Source of the DNA: Candidatus Methylacidiphilales bacterium
GTDB lineage: Bacteria; Verrucomicrobiota; Verrucomicrobiia; Methylacidiphilales; JAAUTS01
Direction: 5' to 3'
Assembly (NCBI GenBank): GCA_028713655.1
Contig: JAQTNW010000004.1
Span: forward strand, 1-64,000
Length of the DNA stretch: 64,000 bases
The notes below the pieces were generated by a model that saw only the letters and a list, made by a program, of their open reading frames with translations, had not been told where the DNA came from and made no database searches. Position 1 is the stretch's first letter, and every line of letters begins with the position of its first letter. Made by a program: the position numbers and the translations under genes. This document shows, in pieces, positions 17,950-48,879 of this stretch.

Positions 17950-17965
17950 GTCCGCCGTTGCGGAC
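17950..17965. repeat. small hairpin beside cloverleaf element
   Basis: GTCCGC, CGTT, GCGGAC form a 6-bp stem with a 4-base loop, 2 bp before the 83-bp palindromic element. It may be part of the same element or a leftover arm. Confidence 0.45.
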
Positions 17966-17967
17966 TT

Positions 17968-18050
17968 TGGAGTGCGCAGACATGTCTGCGCTTTTGAAGC
18001 GGACGACATGTCGTCCGTAATAAAAAGCGGCGTCGTGCCGCCGCACTCCA
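17968..18050. repeat. 83-bp cloverleaf-like palindromic element
   Basis: Outer arms TGGAGTGCG (17968-17976) and CGCACTCCA (18042-18050) are perfect complements. Inside lie three tandem palindromes: GCGCAGACATGTCTGCGC (17974-17991, perfect), CGGACGACATGTCGTCCG (18000-18017, perfect) and the imperfect GCGGCGTCGTGCCGCCGC (18027-18044). The first and third share bases with the outer arms. The three share a GC-arm / ACATGT-like-centre design and look like diverged copies of one unit. The element ends 38 bp before the stop of the GH16 gene on the opposite strand. Confidence 0.75.
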
Positions 18051-18087
18051 TATAAGATGCCCCAATCCGTAAGGTTGGAGAGCTTTG

Positions 18088-19950: not shown

Positions 19951-20026
<76 letters not shown>

Positions 20027-26532: not shown

Positions 26533-26616
26533 GCCGATGTGGCGGAATTGGCAGACGCGCCAGACTCAAAATCTGGTACTGGCAACAGTGTGTGGGTTCG
26601 ACCCCCTCCATCGGCA
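26533..26616 (+). tRNA. tRNA-Leu (CAA)
   Basis: The sequence begins GCCGATGTGGCGGAATTGGC, the class II tRNA start typical of leucine. The anticodon arm is CCAGA-CTCAAAA-TCTGG with anticodon CAA, followed by a long variable arm (TACTGGCAACAGTGTGT) and the T-loop GGTTCGACC. The acceptor pair is GCCGATG/CATCGGC with discriminator A. The following bases are CGCC, so the CCA end is not encoded, unlike tRNA-Gly in this window. Confidence 0.93.
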
Positions 26617-46508: not shown

Positions 46509-46765
46509 GTCCTGACCTTATCCAGAAACTGAAAACTTTAAACTTAAAACTGGAATCAAGGATGGATCGCCACGGCCCAGGATGGGCCGCGCGAGGACGA
46601 TTCCCATGTGGCGGTGGCCTTGGTTCCGCAGGCAGGCGTGCCTCACGCGACTGCGTCATTGCGAGCGGAGCGACGCGGCAATCCAGAGATCGTGGATTGT
46701 AATGCCCAGAATGGACATAAGAGTGAGATTTTTCATTGCCCGGTGTAGCCCGCAAGCTATCGTAC
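46509..46765. other. palindromic-repeat region before the TPP riboswitch
   Basis: This region holds gatggatcgccacggcccag (46561-46580, also at 29573-29592), then gcgtcattgcgagcggagcg at about 46650 continuing into acgcggcaatcc, which resembles a widespread palindromic repeat whose first part also appears at 13617. No gene is apparent. Confidence 0.6.
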
Positions 46766-46768
46766 TTG

Positions 46769-48879
<2,111 letters not shown>

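Follow-up and report, generated by a model that had tools for sequence, protein, structure and literature searches.

The window analysed here is a stretch of 64,000 nucleotides from one contig (JAQTNW010000004.1, assembly GCA_028713655.1) of a Candidatus Methylacidiphilales bacterium. It carries a compact palindromic element flanked by an argG-like and a GH16 gene, both named by inspection and from Pfam; the element starts 38 bp beyond the end of the GH16 gene. The sequence-only reading had described an outer stem (TGGAGTGCG, 17968-17976, facing CGCACTCCA, 18042-18050) around two perfect 18-bp palindromes and a third imperfect one, with a hairpin 2 bp upstream, and all of these are present in the sequence. 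Since the tag at its ends takes in the TTT/AAA beyond that stem, the natural element runs from 17966 to 18052 and is an inverted pair of tagged REP-like units that encloses a third palindrome; the genome has 13 full-length copies of it.

Read along the + strand, the order is tag TTTGGAGT, hairpin A, TTT, spacer, hairpin B, spacer, AAA, hairpin C and inverted tag ACTCCATA. The 5' tag or foot of unit 1 (17966-17973, +) has a constant GGA(G/C)T preceded by T-rich bases in 110 units that adjoin genes of REP-associated tyrosine transposases (RAYTs). It is followed by hairpin A, the perfect 18-bp palindrome GCGCAGACATGTCTGCGC (17974-17991, +), with one pair changed on both sides among the 13 copies, and by the 3' TTT (17992-17994, +), which is invariant in these copies and pairs with the AAA at 18024-18026, closing the middle arm. 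Hairpin B, the untagged perfect 18-bp palindrome CGGACGACATGTCGTCCG in the middle (18000-18017, no strand assigned), also shows a two-sided pair change among copies. Unit 2 lies on the - strand, and consists of its 3' TTT (the AAA of the + strand, 18024-18026, equally invariant in the 13 copies), hairpin C, an imperfect palindrome GCGGCGTCGTGCCGCCGC with a stem of 6 and a loop of 6 (18027-18044) in which a compensatory C-G to U-A change occurs in three copies, and its tag (18045-18052), delimited from the alignment of copies and having ACTCCAAA, often CAGTCCAAA, as the family form. The GCG within the outer stem has two pairing options, across the stem or inside hairpins A and C. The motif GACATGTC is common to two of the palindromes, and all three had been taken for diverged copies of one unit; A and C do share the tag and the GCG/CGC base, but their stems are unrelated and B carries no tag, so that the three palindromes are not simply copies of one unit. 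The upstream hairpin GTCCGCCGTTGCGGAC (17950-17965, no strand assigned) is untagged and ends two bases before TGGAG; a similar hairpin also precedes the element in L002, L006, L015 and L021, and it may be a decayed unit.

Copies of the element and their folding

The genome-wide search proposed from the sequence was run with a 111-base stretch as query and returned 13 full-length copies, together with partial and variant ones, from the 3.29-Mb assembly, in both orientations and with unrelated flanks. With these copies, and with relatives across many phyla, the element is far from unique. Single units, or half-elements, are common in the genome: TTGGASTGCG-N8-24-CRCTTT, the pattern of one unit, is matched exactly 49 times, and the reversed control pattern never. 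In a second subtype, of six copies, GCGTCCGCCGCGGCGGACGC stands in place of the whole of hairpin A (GCGCAGACATGTCTGCGC), and the tag and C half are retained. The pairs of the cloverleaf are kept in 95.5% of cells among the 13 copies of the first subtype, and two-sided changes occur at three pairs, one each in A, B and C (in hairpin B the window copy has an A-T pair, against G-C in the other 12), although this is a modest test of compensatory change because the 13 copies are 92% alike. A crude ORF call places 20 of 30 copies outside any ORF, which is weak evidence for an extragenic position since the elements are often open in one frame. Inspection of the flanks of the copies in the window genome disclosed no visible target duplication.

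Other features of these loci were noted. A palindrome-like sequence, roughly AATTCGCCATGTGGCGATCC, follows the TCCAAA end in eight flanks (L003, L005, L006, L008, L012, L017, L020 and L030) and represents either one more module, now decayed, or a site favoured for insertion. Longer-stemmed units that carry this same tag of the element (matches of 38-39 nt) occur at G000:C13:33243, 47964 and 69131, C14:65137 and C23:51168, G000 being the window genome; they resemble units beside RAYT genes in other genomes, suggesting that the window genome holds more than one unit family. On contig C7, at about 18.5 and 20.6 kb (L028 and L029), the same stretch of at least 80 bases comes before a half-element each time; the two sites are 2 kb from each other, and this is a local duplication.

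As single-stranded DNA, the element folds into a four-arm cloverleaf on both strands (-28.1 kcal/mol, z -6.9 and -6.1), and none of 200 shuffles folded as well; the folding of both strands that had been suggested as a check therefore gave a structure beyond chance on each. Folded as RNA it reaches z -4.6 and -4.7 on the two strands, with a long rod favoured on the + strand and a cloverleaf on the - strand, so that the structure suits DNA at least as well as RNA. The sequence-only reading had named a protein target with several sites, a cruciform and a branched RNA as options; folded single-stranded DNA is the best supported form, and neither a double-stranded multi-site operator nor a known structured RNA is borne out, no Rfam covariance model matching the element at the gathering threshold. 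Elsewhere in the window, Rfam marks an ordinary TPP riboswitch and two tRNA genes (46762-46874, +; 19954-20026, -; 26533-26616, +).

Related units and adjoining transposase genes

The unit TTTGGA(G/C)T-GCG-[variable stem]-CGC-TTT recurs across phyla, with stems that differ by genome and a constant tag, basal GCG/CGC and TTT. Among 388 genomes from the phylum of the window genome, 19 contain the tag-bounded pattern and none its reversed control. In a scan of named genomes, a few of whose matches may be chance and some of whose record names look misassigned, the matches listed include Verrucomicrobia, Chlamydiae, Kiritimatiellales, Lentisphaerae, Planctomycetes and Acidobacteria, as well as Sumerlaeota, Armatimonadetes, Hydrogenedentes, WOR-3 and Anaerolineales records. 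A genome of the window genome's order (G024) has 33 exact units with two alternating stems and no detected RAYT of the clade described below, being another orphan population. The element pattern also matches a few contigs of a viral collection (L322-L331), which may be proviruses, host DNA filed in the wrong place or genuine viral carriers.

The form with three palindromes is itself recurrent: middle palindromes of at least 7 pairs were found in 36 of 145 distinct unit pairs, and elements of the same layout directly adjoin RAYT genes in L221, L297 and L299, their middle palindromes resembling GACATGTC or GACACGTC. The copies in L299, from another Verrucomicrobia genome, match the window element at 75-80% identity over its full length, and one has a hairpin A identical to that of the window copy; the window element itself, beyond the tag alone, is therefore tied to a RAYT system.

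A search for REP-associated transposases had been recommended, and it linked the repeat family to a single RAYT/TnpAREP clade in related genomes. Three element-bearing loci contain a divergent Y1 transposase gene between tagged units, and these three RAYTs, found through the elements, served as seeds of a protein profile that has relatives in 55 of the 388 phylum genomes at E <= 1e-20, with 41 above about 170 bits. At the 30 best-scoring RAYT loci, selected by protein, tags lie within 300 bp on both sides in 27 and on at least one side in 29; altogether 110 tags surround these loci, against 2.1 expected from shuffles, and inverted unit pairs stand beside the RAYT in 19 of the 30. No tag was found at 31 other Y1 loci of the element-bearing genomes and the window genome, nor at two more distant Y1 genes (L320 and L321). 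Among the named genomes, the linkage of RAYT and units occurs in Limisphaerales, Kiritimatiellales, Lentisphaerae, Chlamydiae, Parachlamydiaceae, Planctomyces, Phycisphaerae, Blastocatellia, Hydrogenedentes, WOR-3 and Anaerolineales records, being one-sided in Anaerolineales and at one Chlamydiae locus. Plasmids gave two weak RAYT matches (27-28% identity) and phages none.

Taking the set of 41 RAYT genomes, and with kinship ignored, a RAYT is present in 11 of 19 element genomes versus 30 of 369 others (p = 2e-7); in the other 8 of the 19 none was detected. In the window's own family, the RAYT and units (the latter with different stems) occur together in two genomes and are both absent from four. 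The window's own assembly (about 95% complete, in 90 contigs) is without a RAYT of the clade, and its copies are therefore orphans, or the gene is missing from the assembly; near the genome copies, no remnant of the clade was seen beyond two distant Y1 genes. The four Y1 transposase genes that the window genome does have were considered as mobilisers and set aside, none being flanked by these units within 300 bp. An IS200-type Y1 gene of this genome (L031, G000:C1 81459-84800) lies among CCCAGGG..CCCTGGG palindromes at positions 1171, 1417 and 1980 of the locus, and a similar palindrome occurs in the L023 flank, a second, independent palindromic repeat linked to Y1.

Members of the clade match the NCBIfam model NF047646 (REP_Tyr_transpos, REP-associated tyrosine transposase), two of three above its cut-off. 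An AlphaFold model built from 46 sequences (pLDDT 88; a model from 3 sequences was poor, with pLDDT 57) has as its closest solved structure 4ER8, TnpAREP with a REP hairpin (E 4e-9), which is also the best match by sequence. Both HUH histidines and the tyrosine are invariant in the 46 sequences, and the Y---NP motif is present. Residues W94, Q95, E100, H101 and R104 are reported to contact the GTAG in the E. coli TnpAREP (PMC6006769, PMC8266576); in the clade W94 is conserved and position E100 has D or E, whereas Q95 is replaced by F, H or Y, and H101 and R104 each by T or S. These changes fit an altered foot, short of proof. The tagged RAYTs are monophyletic in the tree, a result that the choice of the tagged set by profile score in part guarantees. 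GTGG occurs in L266, which branches first in the clade as drawn, and also in L251; this no more than hints at a route from GTGG feet to TTGG.

Proposed mobility and alternative explanations

Taken together, these data make it highly probable that the window element is a REPIN-like mobile element that is non-autonomous and belongs to a RAYT-REP system whose foot is (TT)GGAST. The repeat was very probably spread by a REP-associated transposase. On this reading, an inverted pair of REP-type hairpin units is separated by a spacer that contains the third palindrome. Both units have the TTTGGA(G/C)T foot, a stem with a GCG/CGC base and a variable remainder, and a TTT on the 3' side. In the single-stranded state, for instance on the lagging-strand template, it would adopt the four-arm fold, and a dedicated RAYT/TnpAREP, an HUH nuclease with one catalytic tyrosine, would recognise foot and hairpin, cut beside the element and move or copy it to new, mostly intergenic sites with no target duplication. 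We infer recognition, cleavage and mobility, and for the window lineage a RAYT that was once present or is unassembled. The wider proposal that REPs with a GGAST foot form a third major tagged class with its own RAYT clade across many phyla, and that the three-palindrome form is handled by the RAYT as a single four-arm single-stranded DNA substrate with the central palindrome under selection, is a tentative one that we hold to be possible yet somewhat doubtful.

The position of the element, just beyond the GH16 stop codon, and the GC-rich hairpin C followed by TTTTT on the - strand recall a bidirectional transcription terminator or a stabiliser of mRNA 3' ends that was domesticated, duplicated and retained for that role. 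As the principal explanation this is very unlikely: the region has 3 terminator-like sites against 2.0 in shuffles, which is no excess, neither the constant TTTGGAGT foot nor the inverted pair is needed in a terminator, and the linkage to the RAYT would be left without account. Termination can, all the same, be a secondary function of the same element, and the window copy might, on weak grounds, also help to terminate the GH16 transcript. A little less probable still is an origin as a MITE, that is, a deletion derivative of an insertion sequence with a DDE transposase, having TTTTGGA(G/C)TGCG as terminal inverted repeats and palindromes of secondary importance. Inverted ends, a size of about 87 bp and dispersed copies would suit such an element, but the inspected copies show no visible target-site duplication, half-elements are common, both ends form hairpins of their own that show compensatory change, and at the RAYT loci the gene found between units is Y1 and not DDE. 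The least probable reading, that of a double-stranded operator with several sites, or of a cruciform that serves the chromosome, with the palindromes as binding sites of dimers, could draw on the GACATGTC shared by two palindromes, but it is the palindromes that vary between genomes and are swapped whole within a genome, and the non-palindromic tag that stays.

Relation to known REP systems

The REPIN-like element favoured here has its nearest counterparts in the classic REP, BIME and REPIN sequences of the GTAG type with their RAYTs, known from E. coli (group 2/2.2) and Pseudomonas (group 3/2.5) (PMC2817692, PMC3116915, PMC6006769, PMC8266576). As in that type, short tagged hairpins are dispersed, often as inverted pairs, the stem diverges and the foot stays, and an HUH/Y1 gene whose protein fold matches 4ER8 is flanked by the repeats. 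The foot is different, being (TT)GGAST and set three bases into what would be GT[AG]G, and the constant basal GCG/CGC, the 3' TTT and the third palindrome that is often enclosed are further points of difference. Neither strand of the window element has GT[AG]G at the foot, which places it outside the canonical GTAG REPs; GTGG was seen in 6 of 112 units beside RAYT genes. In the wide sense it is a REP/REPIN, having a constant unpaired foot with a variable stem, dispersed copies and inverted pairs. The REPtron arrangement, a Y1 gene flanked by the same repeats, exists in related genomes, and no RAYT was found in the window's own assembly.

Other families share single traits. CGTC-tagged REPs are non-GTAG palindromes that are often inverted dimers and are reported to be without a dedicated transposase (PMC3733652); the present tag is TTTGGAST and a RAYT clade is linked to it, so that the element does not belong among them. 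TIRYT genes, reported in Acidobacteria among others, lie, as the sources describe them, between terminal inverted repeats with a GGGGWSAS motif (PMC3733652; subclass 2.1 of PMC6006769). Here too a Y1 gene stands between inverted repeats, but the tag is without GGGG, the units are hairpins, and the clade proteins, of about 180 aa, are without the C-terminal extension reported for subclass 2.1, although the two groups may overlap. Class 3 TnpAY1, described with a CnGA foot and a Y....Q motif, and subclass 2.6, described as mostly from Bacteroidetes with an NH[LIV]H motif and atypical structures left undescribed (PMC6006769), resemble the present system in having Y1-adjacent repeats with feet other than GT[AG]G; the GGAST foot and the tyrosine motif Y(V)HxNP set it apart from class 3, and NHYH from subclass 2.6. 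GT[AG]G feet are given for subclasses 2.2, 2.4, 2.5, 2.7 and 2.8 in that 2018 classification, whose main text mentions neither Verrucomicrobia nor a GGAG foot (PMC6006769). The tag strings matched only unrelated papers in open-access literature text. RAYT-REP systems are known, and the (TT)GGAST foot and its clade are provisionally regarded as new.

The hallmark of RAYT-linked REPs has so far been GT[AG]G, the motif that automatic searches for REPs look for. A widespread clade with another foot and altered GTAG-contact positions would constitute a natural experiment on DNA recognition by TnpAREP; it would also explain one class of palindromes found between genes in the genomes of PVC bacteria, acidobacteria and candidate phyla, and tie them to a testable enzyme.
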